Below, one piece after another: positions 16,158 to 22,401 of a DNA stretch of 38,754 bases. Under the pieces are notes generated by a model, which did not search any database, was not told the DNA's origin, and saw nothing but the letters and a program-made list of their open reading frames with translations. Source of the DNA: Deltaproteobacteria bacterium CG11_big_fil_rev_8_21_14_0_20_42_23. GTDB lineage: Bacteria; UBA10199; 2-02-FULL-44-16. Position 1 is the stretch's first letter; the number at the start of each line of letters is the position of its first letter. Both the position numbers and the translations under genes were made by a program. The DNA lies in assembly GCA_002796345.1 (NCBI GenBank), contig PCXC01000065.1:1-38754 (forward strand). The letters are read 5' to 3'.

Positions 16158-16727
16158 CTATTCTAAGCTAAACTCGATAGGGAATGAAAAAATATACTGG
16201 TCTTCTTGTATGCTTTTTGGAAATGGAGGAAAGCTTCCAACCCGCTTCACCAAAGCCTTTGCTTCTTCGTCCAACAAATAGACTCCAGAACTTTTTTTCA
16301 AACGTGAAACTAAAATTTCTCCTTCACGAGAAAGAGTGACTTCCATAACAGTGCCCCCTTCTTCACCTCGTTGCTTCGAAAGAAGCGGATATCGTTTTGC
16401 CTTATCTAGAAGCGCCAAAATACGTTCTTGATACAACGCGCTTTCAGCAAGATCATTTCCAGCTACCTGTTGCTCTGAAGAACGTTGCTCAGATAAAGCA
16501 TCACTCTTGTTAAAACCACTTACATCAAGCCTTTGCTCTTGTTCACTCGCATTTTTTTCTTGCTGAATGTTTTTTTTCTCTTCTGCCGTTTGAACAAGAT
16601 TTATATTTAAAGGCCGAAAACTAATAATATCTTTTGATGAGGGAAAAGAGATGAAAAACAAAAGATGCAAAAAAGCTGAAAGAATAAAACCCAATAAAAG
16701 AAAATGTTGTCGAAAAAGAGAAAGCAT
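16158..16727 (-). CDS. TonB-like energy transducer
   Basis: A 189-residue protein with one N-terminal transmembrane helix (about 6-30), a Glu/Gln/Ser-rich periplasmic linker (45-95) instead of the usual Pro-rich one, and a C-terminal TonB domain (about 100-189). The last includes YPLLSKQRGEEGGTVMEVTL and LDEEAKALVKRVGSFPPFP. TonB couples inner-membrane proton motive force, via ExbB/ExbD, to outer-membrane receptors. The short linker is notable. It follows exbD by 8 bases. No TonB-dependent receptor is in the window. Confidence 0.88.
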   Translation of the reverse strand: MLSLFRQHFLLLGFILSAFLHLLFFISFPSSKDIISFRPLNINLVQTAEEKKNIQQEKNASEQEQRLDVSGFNKSDALSEQRSSEQQVAGNDLAESALYQERILALLDKAKRYPLLSKQRGEEGGTVMEVTLSREGEILVSRLKKSSGVYLLDEEAKALVKRVGSFPPFPKSIQEDQYIFSFPIEFSLE

Positions 16728-16735
16728 AAATAAAG

Positions 16736-17122
16736 TTATTTTTTTTGCACAGCAAGGGAAACATCTTGAATATCTAAACTTCGAAGCAGATCCATTACAC
16801 TCACCAGAAAACCAGTTGGGACAAGCTTATCCGCTTGAAGCATAATTTTTTTCACCTTCTCTGTTTCTAACTTTTCGCGTAAAGTTTTTTCTGAATATGA
16901 TTGGCCATCCATAAACAACTCTTGGTTTTCAGTGATGGAGATTGTTGCTACGTGAAGAGCAATCTCTTCTGCAGTGCTAGAGGCTGGAAGGGAGAGACTT
17001 ATTTTTGCATCGGAACGCAAGTTCATGCTGAGCATAAAAAAAATGAGCAGCAAAAAAACCACATCTATTAAAGAAGTAAGATTGGGAAAAGCCTCTATCC
17101 GTTTTCGTCGCCGAATCTGCAT
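16736..17122 (-). CDS. exbD: ExbD/TolR biopolymer transport protein
   Basis: A 128-residue protein with a basic N-terminus, one transmembrane helix (about 14-36) and a periplasmic domain. The helix contains SLIDVVFLLLIFFML with the conserved proton-path aspartate at Asp20, the key residue of ExbD/TolR. It forms a pentamer-dimer complex with ExbB and energises TonB, whose gene follows directly. Its ExbB partner gene is not adjacent but 2.2 kb upstream, beyond an ATP-grasp gene and a toxin-antitoxin pair. Confidence 0.92.
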   Translation of the reverse strand: MQIRRRKRIEAFPNLTSLIDVVFLLLIFFMLSMNLRSDAKISLSLPASSTAEEIALHVATISITENQELFMDGQSYSEKTLREKLETEKVKKIMLQADKLVPTGFLVSVMDLLRSLDIQDVSLAVQKK

Positions 17123-17174
17123 GCAGGCTCTCTAGCGCAAAGCACAGGAAAAATGCAAGGTGGAAGGCAATACA

Positions 17175-18323
17175 TCAATCTTCTTCCACTTCAATTACAA
17201 GCGTCTTGCGAATGGTTTCAAAAATCTGAATAATTTCATCTCGATTTTGTCCCCTTACCAAAACACGGCCTTTATTTTCGCCCGCTGTTTCTCGCTTTTT
17301 AATTTTTTCTCCCACCTTTAACTTCACCTGAACAGCTTCTACTCCAGGAAGAGCTGAAAGCTCCTTCACGCCTTTAAGTTTTGTGATTGTTCCCGCGGGA
17401 GGATGAATAAGATGCACTCCGGCATAAGATTTTCTTTTCGGTGGAAAATTCACCATCTCCCCAAGCTCAAGCCTAACAAGCATTTCCCAAGGCTTAAATC
17501 CAAATTCAAGTTCAATGAGCAACATAATAAAACCACCCGGAGGACGAATGGCAACCTCACCAAAAACGGGGCCTTGTTCGGTGAGGTAAAATTCCGCATG
17601 CGTCATGCCTGTATCTACACCCAAAATACTCAGTACTTTATTGTTCAGCGCTATCACCTCTTCTGTCACTTTGGGATACTGTGCAGCGGGAGCAATGAGG
17701 TGATGATAGTGACCAAGATATTCGGTAGTATGCTGAAATAAAATTTTTCCATTTTGCACAAAACTTTCAACAGACATCTCAGATCCAGTAATGAAGCGCT
17801 CTGCAAGCCAGCCTTGTTTTTTCTGCAATGCAAACTTCTTTACATCGGAAAGCACCTGCAAATCTTTTCCACCCGAAAGATCTTTGCGTTTAAACACAAC
17901 GGGCAAGCCCAATTCTTGCACAAGATTTTTCACGTTTGTGTTTTCATTAATTTCTACAAAATCGGTAATAGGAATATCGGCTTCCAAAACTTTTTGTTTC
18001 ATTGCAAGCTTGTTATGAAAGCATTCAACTGTAAATGGAAGCGCTCGTTTAAAACCAAGATGCTCTCTAACCCTTGCTCCAAGCACAACAGAGGCTTCGC
18101 TCACGGCTAAAACGGCATCAATGTTTTGAGCATCAAGAAACGAGAGGATTTCGGCAGAAAAAGATTCGTTTGATTTCGGAAACGGAATTTCCAAAGAGGC
18201 CAACGCTTTTTTTGAAAGCGATGGAAGAAGACCACGTTCATCCCAAAGCAAATATTGATGCCCTAAGTTGAGCACCGCTTCGCAGCAAGGTTTCCTGGCA
18301 CCAATAATTAAAACCGTCTTCAC
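17175..18323 (-). CDS. ATP-grasp domain protein, putative carboxylate-amine ligase
   Basis: A 382-residue ATP-grasp enzyme. Residues 1-100 form a pre-ATP-grasp Rossmann-like domain (VLIIGARKPCCEAVLNLGHQ). The ATP-grasp fold follows: KLAMKQKVLEADIP, PVVFKRKDLSGGKDLQVL, AERFITGSEMSVESFV, then the metal-binding MTHAEFYLTEQGPVFGEVAIRP, with Glu and downstream Arg as expected catalytic residues. Such enzymes join a carboxylate to an amine via an acyl-phosphate, as in dipeptide ligases (YwfE type), PurK and biotin carboxylase. The substrate cannot be assigned. The start is GTG 18323, backed by GAGGGAAGAG three bases upstream. It lies between a toxin-antitoxin pair and exbD. Confidence 0.85.
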   Translation of the reverse strand: MKTVLIIGARKPCCEAVLNLGHQYLLWDERGLLPSLSKKALASLEIPFPKSNESFSAEILSFLDAQNIDAVLAVSEASVVLGARVREHLGFKRALPFTVECFHNKLAMKQKVLEADIPITDFVEINENTNVKNLVQELGLPVVFKRKDLSGGKDLQVLSDVKKFALQKKQGWLAERFITGSEMSVESFVQNGKILFQHTTEYLGHYHHLIAPAAQYPKVTEEVIALNNKVLSILGVDTGMTHAEFYLTEQGPVFGEVAIRPPGGFIMLLIELEFGFKPWEMLVRLELGEMVNFPPKRKSYAGVHLIHPPAGTITKLKGVKELSALPGVEAVQVKLKVGEKIKKRETAGENKGRVLVRGQNRDEIIQIFETIRKTLVIEVEED

Positions 18324-18404
18324 ACTCTTCCCTCACGGAAGCTAGCCATCTAACAGTTTCTGTTTCCCGAGACGAGGAAAAAGTGAAGGAAGATAAACTG
18401 ATTA

Positions 18405-18890
18405 TTATGCGGCTTCTTGCCATTCTTTATTTTTTGTAACGAAGATTCTTTTGTGGGATTTTTTAGTCTTCTCTGAGCCATAGGAACTAAGATTTTTTGT
18501 ATAGTTACGAAACGGCCCATATTCCGAAAGAATAAGGGTACGTAAAAATCTTTCTGAGGTGAGCGACATTTGCTCTTTTCCATTTTCCCACCGAGATACG
18601 CTTTCGGGGGTAACTGCAAAGTTTTTGGCAAACTCAACTCCAGACCAGCCTAAATGAGATCGCAAAAAACGCACCTCAGTTGGAAGCAAACGGCTTTTTT
18701 GTGAAGCCACCACCTTGGCAATTACAGTATGAAGTTGTTCAAGATTGGGGATAACAATTTCTTCTTCATCGCAATGCGAACACGTATAAATTTCTATTTT
18801 TTTTAGAATAATATTTTTCAGTCCACACTCAGCATAGCGATAATCAGCAAGTTTTTTTTTCATTTTTTTTGAACACTCTGAACACATCAT
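18405..18890 (-). CDS. MqsA/YgiT-family antitoxin (zinc finger plus HTH)
   Basis: A 161-residue protein. Two CxxC pairs, Cys3/Cys6 and Cys37/Cys40, form the zinc-binding N-terminal domain of MqsA/YgiT antitoxins. A helix-turn-helix of the XRE type follows (about 68-115), with WSGVEFAKNFAVTPESVSRWENG. The C-terminal tail is Lys/Ser-rich. It is expected to bind and silence the toxin encoded immediately upstream and to repress their common promoter. One base separates the toxin stop from ATG 18890, and GGAGA lies eight bases before the start, so the order is toxin then antitoxin. Confidence 0.85.
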   Translation of the reverse strand: MMCSECSKKMKKKLADYRYAECGLKNIILKKIEIYTCSHCDEEEIVIPNLEQLHTVIAKVVASQKSRLLPTEVRFLRSHLGWSGVEFAKNFAVTPESVSRWENGKEQMSLTSERFLRTLILSEYGPFRNYTKNLSSYGSEKTKKSHKRIFVTKNKEWQEAA

Positions 18891-18891
18891 T

Positions 18892-19203
18892 TTATTTTCT
18901 CCAAGCAGTGATACAACGAATACAATTTTGATGCATAAATGTAATCACCACAATTATTTTTTCTGTTTCCACTCTGTAACGGTATGTTCCATTAACCAGC
19001 TCTGGATCTGTGTAAATCAAGCCTGCCTTTAACACATTTAAAAGATCAACTGTCGTAAGATTATCGTGGGCTAGCTCTTTGCGACAATGTTTACTGAGAG
19101 AAATAGCGTTAGTATCTGCATTCAGAATTTCTGAAAGCAGCTTCCGGGCCTGAACCCGATTCAATCTTGATAATATATCAATACTTGATTTAAAATCAAC
19201 CAT
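18892..19203 (-). CDS. DUF4258-like toxin of a type II toxin-antitoxin module
   Basis: A 103-residue protein with the core SKHCRKELAHDNLTTVDLLN, NVLKAGLIYTDPEL, GTYRYRVETEKIIVVITFM and a final ITAWRK. This is the DUF4258-type pattern (His-containing helix, VL..G, RY.V.T, then ITAWR) often paired with MqsA-type antitoxins, and probably an RNase-fold toxin related to RelE/MqsR. ATG 19203 is chosen over a TTG 33 bases upstream that would add a non-family extension. The ribosome binding site is poor. The module sits between exbB and the ATP-grasp gene on the same strand. Confidence 0.75.
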   Translation of the reverse strand: MVDFKSSIDILSRLNRVQARKLLSEILNADTNAISLSKHCRKELAHDNLTTVDLLNVLKAGLIYTDPELVNGTYRYRVETEKIIVVITFMHQNCIRCITAWRK

Positions 19204-19307
19204 TTTAATCCCAAAAAAAAGAGGAGCAAGAGCCAAAAACCTAATTGCTTTGTCCCTCGTTCACTTTACAAGAGTAAAAGATGGGAAAATGGAGTGAAAT
19301 CGTTCAC

Positions 19308-19913
19308 TTATTCCAAGGCTGAAACAAGGGACACACAGCGTTGAAGCTGGTGTTCTAGCTTTTCGAGTCTGGCCTCGAAAGTGTAGTAGGCGATGAGGGA
19401 AACAATGGAGATCATCAGCCCAAAGGCAGTGGTGATAAGGGCTTCCCAGATACCGCCTGCAATGAGAGATGGCGAAACAGTCGTAGCTATTTCGATAGTG
19501 GAAAAAGCGCGAATCATACCTGTTACCGTTCCCAACAAACCCACAAGTGGACTCACCGCTGCAATAATGGAAAGTGGACGTAACCAAGATTCTAAAGAGC
19601 GTAACAAAACAGAGGCTTTGTGAAACAAGATATTTTTAAGCTGCTCACCGATATATTTTTTTGTTTCGAAGGTATTAACAGCTTCAAGAAAAAATCGTGA
19701 AAGAGGATCTTGTTTTTTCTCAAGTATTTTCCCCGCCTGTTTTAATTCATTTTTTTGAACAAACTGGAAAACCTCTTCAATACTCACTTTGCGGAACAAG
19801 CCTAAACTGAAAAACTGAAAACTTTTTGCAAAAATAATCGCCAAAGAGAAAAAGGAAAAGGCGAGCAAAACCCACATCAACTCGCCACCTTTAAAAAATA
19901 TATCTATACTCAT
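19308..19913 (-). CDS. exbB: ExbB/TolQ/MotA-family proton channel protein
   Basis: A 201-residue inner-membrane protein with three transmembrane helices (about 11-32, 110-135 and 150-178). The second to third helix region contains the family core, SIIAAVSPLVGLLGTVTGMI, and IEIATTVSPSLIAGGIWEAL. It builds the proton-conducting pentamer around ExbD. It is closer to ExbB/TolQ than MotA in length. ATG 19913 overlaps the region just after the slipin stop, with AGAGAAG upstream. exbD and tonB are downstream on the same strand but separated by the toxin-antitoxin and ATP-grasp genes. Confidence 0.92.
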   Translation of the reverse strand: MSIDIFFKGGELMWVLLAFSFFSLAIIFAKSFQFFSLGLFRKVSIEEVFQFVQKNELKQAGKILEKKQDPLSRFFLEAVNTFETKKYIGEQLKNILFHKASVLLRSLESWLRPLSIIAAVSPLVGLLGTVTGMIRAFSTIEIATTVSPSLIAGGIWEALITTAFGLMISIVSLIAYYTFEARLEKLEHQLQRCVSLVSALE

Positions 19914-19916
19914 AGT

Positions 19917-20666
19917 TTACTTCTCTTTATTCACAAAAAATTTCACCAAGTCCATGGGAATGGGGAAAAATGTGGTTGAATTATGTTCGCTGGCAATCTC
20001 CGCCATCGTTTGCAAATAGCGCATTTGCAACGACATGGGATGAAGCTCCATCATTTTTGCTGCTGCTACCAATTTTTCTGCTGCTTGATGTTCACCTTCA
20101 GCTGCAATCACCTTCGCACGTCGCTCACGTTCTGCTTCAGCCTGTCTTGCCATTGCACGCTTCAATTCTTCAGTGAGATCGACGTGTTTAATTTCAACAT
20201 TCGTAACTTTAATTCCCCACGGGTCTGTTTGCTTATCGAGAATTTCTTGAATTTGACCGTTAATTTCTTCGCGCTCAGAAAGAAGTTCGTCAAGCTCTCG
20301 CTGACCAACTACTGAACGTAAAGTAGTTTGTGCCATTTGACTTGTTGCAAACACATAATTCTCCACTTCAATTACAGACTTGTTTGGTTCAAGCACGCGA
20401 AAATACACAACTGCATTTACCTGAACTGAAACGTTATCTTTGGTGATGATATCTTGAGGAGGAACATCAAGAGCTATTAAACGCAGGCTAATTCTTACAA
20501 TGCGGTCGATGGGCTTGAAGACAAAAATAAATCCCGGGCCTTTTGGAGTTTTAAGCAAACGACCAAGCCGAAAAATAACACCCCGCTCATATTCATTCAA
20601 AATGTTAATGCACGATGCCAAATACAAAGCAAGAAACACTACTATAATGACTGTTGGGGAAAACAT
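19917..20666 (-). CDS. Slipin (SPFH/band 7 membrane protein)
   Basis: A 249-residue stomatin-like protein: an N-terminal hydrophobic hairpin (3-24), then the SPFH domain ([22 protein letters not shown] to about residue 190), and a coiled-coil [24 protein letters not shown] (173-196), as in slipins. It should scaffold membrane microdomains and is the usual partner and possible substrate of the NfeD protease encoded eight bases upstream. AGGAGG five bases before ATG 20666 is a strong ribosome binding site. exbB follows within a few bases, an unusual neighbour for a slipin-NfeD pair. Confidence 0.94.
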
Positions 20667-20674
20667 AAATCCTC

Positions 20675-22066
20675 CTATTGTGAAGATGAAATTGATTTCA
20701 CCTGAAGCTTGAGACCGTTCATAGCATCAACCCTTACTTTATCTCCAGCAGAAAACGTAGAATCACTCGTGGCATGCCAAATTTCTCCATGCACAAAGAT
20801 ACTTCCTTCATAACCCTTCCAAGAAGACACTTCCCCTACAAGGCCTATCATTCCTTCGCTTCCCGTTACCACCTTTTGATTTCGCATCCGGAAGAGCATG
20901 CTCATGAGAAACGAAACAATAAGCGTTGTTGCAAACGTCACAGCTATAATAATGTGAAGTGAAACACGCATATACTGATGAGGCGAATCAAATAAAATAA
21001 GAGAACCAAAGAAGAGCGAAATAATTCCACCCACTCCAAACAATCCAAATCCAGCTGCTTGAGCTTCGGCGATGAAAAGCAGCACCGACAAGGCAATAAG
21101 CGCCACACCTGCATAGTTTGTGGGAAGAATCTGCATTCCAAAAAAAGCAAGCACAAGACAAATGCTGCCAGCCACACCTGGAAAACCAAAACCTGGATGT
21201 GTGAACTCAAAGAGCAAGCCGTAAAATCCCAACATCATCAAAATATAAGCAATATTTGGATGCGCCAAAAAAGTGAGTAAACGCAAACGAAAATCTTGAG
21301 GAAGTATTTTAAGCTCAAGATGCTTGGTATCAAGTGTAATCGTTTTTTCACCCACCTTCACCTCTACACCATCAAGCTGTCGCAGCAAATCTGCACGATT
21401 AGTGGCTATAAAGTTAATCACCTTTTCTTGCAGCGCTTTTTCCGCAGTAATTGAAACACTTTCAGAAACAGCAAGACGCGCCCACGCTTCGTTTCTGCCA
21501 CGAAGTTTTGCCAAGCCTTCTATCCACGCCAAAGTATCATTCATGATTTTATCTTCCATGGGATCATGAGATTTTTCAGTGCTTGGCGAAGTGTTGCGTG
21601 GTTTATCTTCGGATGGCTGCTTCTCTTTTTTTTCAAATTGTTGAAAAATATCTTTCCAACTTTTTTCTTCTTTTTTTTCTCCACCCACATTTACAGGATG
21701 CGCAGCGCCAATATTGGTTGAAGGTGCCATCGCCACCAAGTGCGCAGCATAACTGATAAAGACGCCAGCAGATCCAGCTCGAGATCCCGATGGTGAAACA
21801 TAGACAATCACAGGAATGTTGGCGTTTACGATGCGCTTCACAATGGTTCTGGTTGAGCTCAGCAAACCACCCGGAGTATCAAGCTGGATCAGTAAAAACG
21901 CAGCATGATCTTTTTCCGCTTGCTCCAGTGATGTGGCAATATATTCGGCAGAAACAGGACTAATGATTTCGTCATTCAGTTCAATGCGATAAGCAAATTT
22001 TTCTTGAGCAAATGCTTGCATCGTAAAAGCAAATAAAAAGAAAGAAAGGAAAAGCAACTTTTTCAT
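20675..22066 (-). CDS. nfeD: NfeD long form, membrane-bound ClpP-like serine protease
   Basis: A 463-residue protein: signal peptide 1-20 (ending AFA), ClpP-class protease domain (about 25-225), four or more transmembrane segments (about 255-390), and a C-terminal OB-fold NfeD domain (about 405-463). Ser99 in [11 protein letters not shown] corresponds to the nucleophile of archaeal 1510-N, and Lys173 in [13 protein letters not shown] to its general base, so the Ser-Lys dyad appears intact. Residues 127-168 are a Lys/Glu/Ser-rich insertion. The frame stays open 65 codons further upstream, but ATG 22066 is preceded by GAGGGA and begins a clean signal peptide. Confidence 0.94.
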
Positions 22067-22074
22067 TTTATCCC

Positions 22075-22401
22075 TCACTTCATAAGAGCTTGGTGAATGA
22101 AATATCCAAGAACTAGTAATGCCACTCCCATCATGTATAACCACCAAAAACCAAGTTTCAATTTTTCGGCAAAAAGAAATGGGAGAAAAAATAAAAGCGA
22201 AACAGGAACGGCGACAAAAATACTTTTTGCAAAGTGCACACTGTTGGCGCTGTCTTTCCATTCAAGCTGAGAAAACGGCAAAACCAGTAAAGTTGTAAGT
22301 GGAAGCGCCACGATAAAACCTGCAAGCACTGGTTTTCTCCCAGCAAGCCAAGAAGAAAAGGCAATAACAAGGGCTGCAACAAAAGTTTTTATGAGCATCA
22401 T
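22075..22401 (-). CDS. Small membrane protein (DUF3147-like)
   Basis: A 108-residue protein with three or four transmembrane segments (about 4-20, 26-45, 60-77 and 84-104). RKPVLAGFIVALPLTTLLVL resembles the core of small DUF3147-like inner-membrane proteins; function is unknown. Two ATG codons begin the gene in tandem, and the upstream hydrolase's TGA overlaps them (ATGATG), so translation is coupled. AAGGGGA lies upstream. It is followed by nfeD after 8 bases. Confidence 0.65.
   Translation of the reverse strand: MMLIKTFVAALVIAFSSWLAGRKPVLAGFIVALPLTTLLVLPFSQLEWKDSANSVHFAKSIFVAVPVSLLFFLPFLFAEKLKLGFWWLYMMGVALLVLGYFIHQALMK

Follow-up and report, generated by a model that had tools for sequence, protein, structure and literature searches.

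A toxin-antitoxin pair and an ATP-grasp ligase gene between exbB and exbD in a deltaproteobacterial genome, probably independent cargoes of one operon

In Deltaproteobacteria bacterium CG11_big_fil_rev_8_21_14_0_20_42_23 (assembly GCA_002796345.1), exbB is separated from exbD and tonB by a toxin-antitoxin pair and a gene for a stand-alone ATP-grasp ligase. The locus lies in a stretch of 38,754 nucleotides (nt), positions 1 to 38,754 of contig PCXC01000065.1, hereafter the window. Based on comparisons with relatives of each part, we consider it probable that two independent cargoes lie inside an exbB-exbD-tonB operon, itself located behind an NfeD-slipin operon. The gene order is real and locally rare, and it looks like the product of ordinary insertion or accretion and not like a new system. 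This reading builds on direct observation of the gene order, the protein families, the adjacency of exbB and exbD in relatives and the occurrence of the two cargoes apart from each other elsewhere. An earlier note on this DNA, made from the sequence alone, had listed exbB, toxin, antitoxin, ATP-grasp ligase, exbD and tonB with their coordinates, and our analysis agrees on both; the strand, which it did not give, is the minus strand, where the block runs from 19913 to 16158 with all six genes present and their frames intact. The upstream context, also absent from that note, places exbB only 3 nt behind the NfeD-slipin pair.

The comparison covered 46 genomes of the class, and a search of the whole phylum returned the same 46. 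These genomes contain 55 ExbB-like and 40 ExbD-like matches, and every ExbD-like match (40/40) shares contig and strand with an ExbB-like match; the remaining 15 of the 55 ExbB-like matches, without a scored ExbD-like match on their contig, were left out of the pair count. The spacing from match end to match start is 45-204 nt in 39 of the 40 ExbB/TolQ-ExbD/TolR pairs and 2189 nt in the window pair, so that the adjacency of exbB and exbD, which is usual without defining the system, is absent at this locus. No second split pair was found among the 40 scored pairs of the class, many of which are TolQ-TolR, including the genome's own Tol pair on contig C32, counted among the 39.

In a tree of 21 hand-chosen rows from the 55 ExbB-like ones, the window gene and nine relatives form a 10-row ExbB clade (support 100/100) apart from an 11-row clade that includes the genome's own TolQ; by this tree, the window ExbB is distinct from the TolQ of the same genome. 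In all nine ExbB-clade relatives, exbD lies beside exbB. The tblastn scan of the loci overlooked ExbB in one case (L136) and ExbD in another (L137), both of which had been found by the earlier class-wide searches. Two genomes, G041 and G032, provide the best ExbB matches and also the best TonB matches among the loci fetched, to which the TonB search was limited. Their mechanically called exbB and exbD frames overlap by 4 nt, with tonB directly after; exbB of G041 is preceded by a frame that encodes the end of a TonB-dependent receptor barrel (PF00593, 7.3e-15). These relatives are distant, the best ExbB identity being 41%. The synteny comparison that the earlier note had proposed for close relatives thus gave an adjacent exbB-exbD-tonB in the distant G041 and G032, and no close relative with an empty site was seen.

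The two cargoes occur elsewhere on their own. Antitoxin matches are present in 8 of the 46 class genomes, its own included; three genomes from a different family of the class hold relatives that are 56-60% identical over 161/161 residues. Among the seven antitoxin loci of other genomes, a toxin of this kind is also present in four, one of which is cut by a contig end, and absent from three; in the fetched DNA, none of the seven carries exbB, exbD, tonB or the ligase gene. For the ligase, exact peptide patterns recovered six full-length relatives in named genomes (35-39% identity), a part of the family that comprises four Colwellia or Cognaticolwellia, one Halobacteriovorax and one Bdellovibrionia. 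No exbB, exbD, tonB or toxin-antitoxin pair was found in their fetched flanks (0/6), which are uneven in length and almost missing upstream in one locus (L069). Since the pair and the ligase are found elsewhere without each other and without exbBD, neither cargo seems tied to the other or to the motor. The interpretation of the earlier note therefore stands in part. Its proposal that the module was inserted into an existing operon agrees with the adjacent exbB-exbD of the relatives and with the separate occurrence of pair and ligase, and its other proposal, that the transport system handles a small peptide made by the ATP-grasp enzyme, finds no support in the six ligase loci.

Upstream, NfeD adjoins slipin in the loci of all 17 slipin relatives at 59% identity or more, and exbB or exbD is present in none of the 17 (fetched stretches of 5.8-13 kb). 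As NfeD-slipin is kept without exbB in these loci, exbB appears to have joined a conserved pair. From the hydrolase gene at the head of the run to exbB, successive gaps are -4, 8, 8 and 3 nt, and exbD and tonB are 8 nt apart; the gaps at the cargo edges are wider (104, 81 and 52 nt).

Based on these comparisons, an exbB-exbD-tonB operon would have stood directly behind the NfeD-slipin operon, and the toxin-antitoxin pair and the ligase gene would have come to lie between exbB and exbD, presumably by insertion. It is presumed that ExbB, ExbD and TonB continue to work together as the proton-driven motor typical of such systems, serving a TonB-dependent receptor. The candidate receptor is a protein encoded on another contig of the genome, with a single plug-domain match (G000 C54:1802-2116, 4.1e-26), which is presumably served by this motor. 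The pair is presumably a common type II module that regulates its own expression and whose toxin is an MqsR-like ribonuclease (RNase); the ligase would couple a carboxylic acid to an amine, for example one amino acid to another. The expression of exbD-tonB would depend on read-through or on a promoter inside the cargo. A scan of the three cargo-edge gaps gave no promoter- or terminator-like match, which makes co-transcription possible, and read-through across the cargo is likewise possible.

Several observations weigh against this reading. The window ExbB joins G041 and G032 in the tree with a support of only 85/67, and its branch in the class tree is very long (2.3 changes per column), so that it is either fast-evolving or distant in origin. 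ExbD matches G032 best, and G016 and G022 score above G041; this ranking differs from that of ExbB, so a single origin for exbB, exbD and tonB is unproven. The genomes compared include three of the same family and none of the same genus. In these three, two of which are only 81-83% complete, ExbB matches do not go beyond 7.5e-11 and slipin matches are absent at 1e-30, so that no true empty site was seen. Gaps of 42-88 nt also separate other same-strand neighbors in the window, so the wider gaps at the cargo edges support seams and do not prove them. Inside the toxin and ligase genes, the scan found six promoter-like and four terminator-like matches on the minus strand which, if real, would argue against one simple transcript; the scan totals are little above chance (promoters, 20 versus 13.9, standard deviation 3.7; terminators, 12 versus 7.7, standard deviation 2.8). 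Finally, base composition does not set the cargo apart as foreign, and no target-site duplication was found among 20 of the 31 direct repeat families over the cargo.

Insertion into a complete operon was weighed against a history of accretion in which nothing was split: exbB would first have joined the NfeD-slipin operon, and exbD-tonB would have arrived separately downstream, with the pair and the ligase gene already there. NfeD-slipin is indeed a conserved core, only 3 nt separate exbB from the slipin gene versus the 52-nt gap before exbD-tonB, and ExbD ranks its relatives differently from ExbB. Nevertheless, the two genes are neighbors in each of the other 39 scored pairs, G041 and G032 give the best matches for both ExbB and TonB, and ExbB is expected to need ExbD; we regard this history as unlikely. 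An assembly artefact, in which pieces of different genomes were joined, is suggested by the draft state of the genome (81 contigs). Its probability is next to negligible given an estimated contamination of 0.97%, a composition similar across the genes, the intact frames, and the likeness of slipin to relatives of the order (74-79%) and of the antitoxin to relatives of the class (56-60%), which places flank and middle in one lineage.

The six genes could also act as a functional unit, with the ligase supplying a small peptide for import or export by the TonB system, and with the toxin-antitoxin pair linking the unit to stress. They do form one run on the same strand, with three gaps free of promoter- or terminator-like matches, but exbB, exbD and tonB are missing from the six ligase and the seven antitoxin loci as fetched, the split pair is unique among the 40 scored, and the class genomes hold only distant ATP-grasp relatives of the ligase (20-32% identity). 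We consider such a unit very improbable. The same counts (no second case in 40 pairs, 0/6 ligase loci, 0/7 antitoxin loci) led us to reject an ancient functional linkage. An extended form, a co-transcribed module in which antitoxin binding in the exbB-toxin gap would throttle read-through into exbD-tonB, the toxin-antitoxin state would set TonB-dependent uptake and the ligase product would be a cargo or signal of that system, is an extremely speculative proposal to which we attach scarcely any weight.

The features of the exbB-tonB block and its upstream context are collected in Table 1; the ExbB, ExbD, TonB_C, LAL_C2 and ATP-grasp matches passed their Pfam cut-offs. The full minus-strand run of the window comprises an alpha/beta hydrolase, a small membrane protein, NfeD, slipin (SPFH), exbB, toxin, antitoxin, ATP-grasp ligase, exbD, tonB, dCTP deaminase and an M32 peptidase. 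The longest NfeD frame (start 22261) overlaps the frame of the small membrane protein (22075-22401); the start listed, 8 nt behind the latter frame, is more likely.

Table 1. Genes and intergenic features around the exbB-tonB block (aa, amino acids)
Feature	Positions	Strand	Evidence or remark
exbB, MotA/TolQ/ExbB proton channel family, 201 aa	19308..19913	-	PF01618 98.6 bits, 2.9e-28
exbB-toxin gap, 104 nt, exbB stop to likely toxin ATG	19204..19307	-	Direct and inverted repeat; possible operator, weak
Toxin, DUF4258-like, MqsR/RelE-like predicted fold, 103 aa	18892..19203	-	PF14076 23.3 bits (cut-off 25); structure model
Antitoxin, MqsA family, CxxC...CxxC finger and helix-turn-helix, 161 aa	18405..18890	-	TIGR03830 76.0 bits (cut-off 61.8)
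ATP-grasp ligase, L-amino acid ligase C-terminal domain, 382 aa	17175..18323	-	PF18603 (LAL_C2) 47.6 bits; PF02222 (ATP-grasp) 37.1 bits
exbD, 128 aa	16736..17122	-	PF02472 90.5 bits, 1.2e-25
tonB, TonB_C domain, 189 aa	16158..16727	-	PF03544 48.7 bits, 1.1e-12; TIGR01352 44.4 bits
Slipin/SPFH (Band 7), context, not cargo	19917..20666	-	PF01145 3.7e-39; 17 closest relatives at 59-79%
NfeD, slipin partner, context	20675..22066	-	Likely start 22066; PF24961, PF25145, PF01957

The toxin and antitoxin genes are separated by 1 nt. The toxin falls just below the curated cut-off of DUF4258 (23.9 bits in a second scan), and we therefore call it DUF4258-like and do not file it as a member. Its start is more likely the ATG at 19203 than the TTG at 19236 of a longer frame, a small correction, because relatives begin at the matching residue. 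The antitoxin passes TIGR03830 and fails the Pfam MqsA model (28.3 versus 30 bits). A structure model of the toxin alone, predicted from its single sequence with no alignment (predicted local distance difference test score, 78.3; predicted template modelling score, 0.67), matches best chain D of the MqsR-MqsA entry 3hi2 (Z 9.1, 84 residues, root-mean-square deviation 2.7), a chain of length 91, which suggests that it is MqsR. The rows after 3hi2, at Z of about 6 (6.1), are mostly RelE/ParE-superfamily toxins, BrnT and colicin E5. Foldseek was weaker, placing 3hi2 at rank 5 (E 0.10) behind TrmO and RelBE2 rows, with none at 0.001. The predicted fold of the toxin is thus MqsR/RelE-like, and an MqsR-like fold agrees with an antitoxin that TIGR03830 assigns to the MqsA family. 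Near the antitoxin relatives of 39%, 37% and 24% identity (L142, L143 and L154, in G036, G006 and G033), no toxin of this kind could be detected, which suggests that they are orphans or have other partners. Neither toxin nor antitoxin was found in viral contigs; in plasmids, toxin and ligase gave no match at the limits used, and the antitoxin matched five plasmid records at 29.6-34.0%. Defence-system models gave just weak helix-turn-helix-type matches and one weak ligase match on the locus.

In the exbB-toxin gap (19204-19311), the 10-nt sequence AAGTGAACGA occurs twice as a direct repeat, 43 nt from start to start; of the two copies, the first lies just within the exbB stop and makes up half of a 6-nt inverted repeat. 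Among 2000 random 108-nt pieces of the window, 2.25% contained such a direct repeat and 0.8% both the direct and the inverted repeat. By eye, AAGTGAACGA was not found in the printed stretches that precede the related pairs of G010 and G026. The repeat could be a weak candidate operator. The fold of the gap was unremarkable (z -0.62). A conserved operator in the first toxin codons found no support, as identical codons at identical residues numbered 3/8 in the first 18 columns and 9/36 in the rest.

Of the ten proteins scanned beside the ligase relatives, two had no family and the rest include RsmI, a CNNM/CorC protein, YjbR, a prolyl oligopeptidase and a dienelactone hydrolase; the only recurring neighbor is Peptidase_S9, at two loci and as a minor match in one. 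The genome also contains four further ATP-grasp frames of 420-453 aa, distantly ligase-like, on contigs C35, C17 and C2 (L008). C35 carries two of these at a distance of about 7 kb, possibly as part of a biosynthetic cluster.

The locus is a clear small example of an operon gaining unrelated genes, a toxin-antitoxin module among them. In a literature search on exbB with toxin-antitoxin modules, no title concerned this arrangement. DUF4258 is placed among the BECR-fold toxins, with its activity listed as unknown, in a 2025 paper (PMC11980606), so that the MqsR-like modelled fold beside an MqsA-type antitoxin offers a testable RNase guess for DUF4258 toxins. Another paper reports DUF4258 toxins only on Xanthomonas chromosomes (PMC4861877).

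Compared with known ExbB-ExbD-TonB systems, the locus has all three proteins with Pfam domains over cut-off and one receptor plug domain elsewhere in the genome; it differs in the unrelated genes between exbB and exbD and in its place behind an NfeD-slipin operon. With MqsRA and DUF4258-MqsA modules, the pair shares an MqsA-family antitoxin, a toxin near DUF4258, modelled closest to the MqsR entry, and a toxin gene that comes first, whereas it differs from the DUF4258 family in scoring under the curated cut-off. The table of PMC11980606 lists DUF4258 in antitoxin-toxin order; the toxin-first order of the window is that of the 17 DUF4258-MqsA fusions reported in the same paper. The best solved relative of the ligase is the L-amino acid ligase 4wd3 (8.8e-19), with which it shares the ATP-grasp and LAL_C2 domains, although the phmmer alignment covers only residues 59-382 of the window protein; the protein fell short of the cut-off of every NCBIfam model, so that no substrate can be assigned. 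Published work already mentions toxin-antitoxin modules that have inserted into operons (PMC6504116); these resemble the present case in having a module between the genes of an operon, while the locus described here has a second, unrelated gene beside the module.

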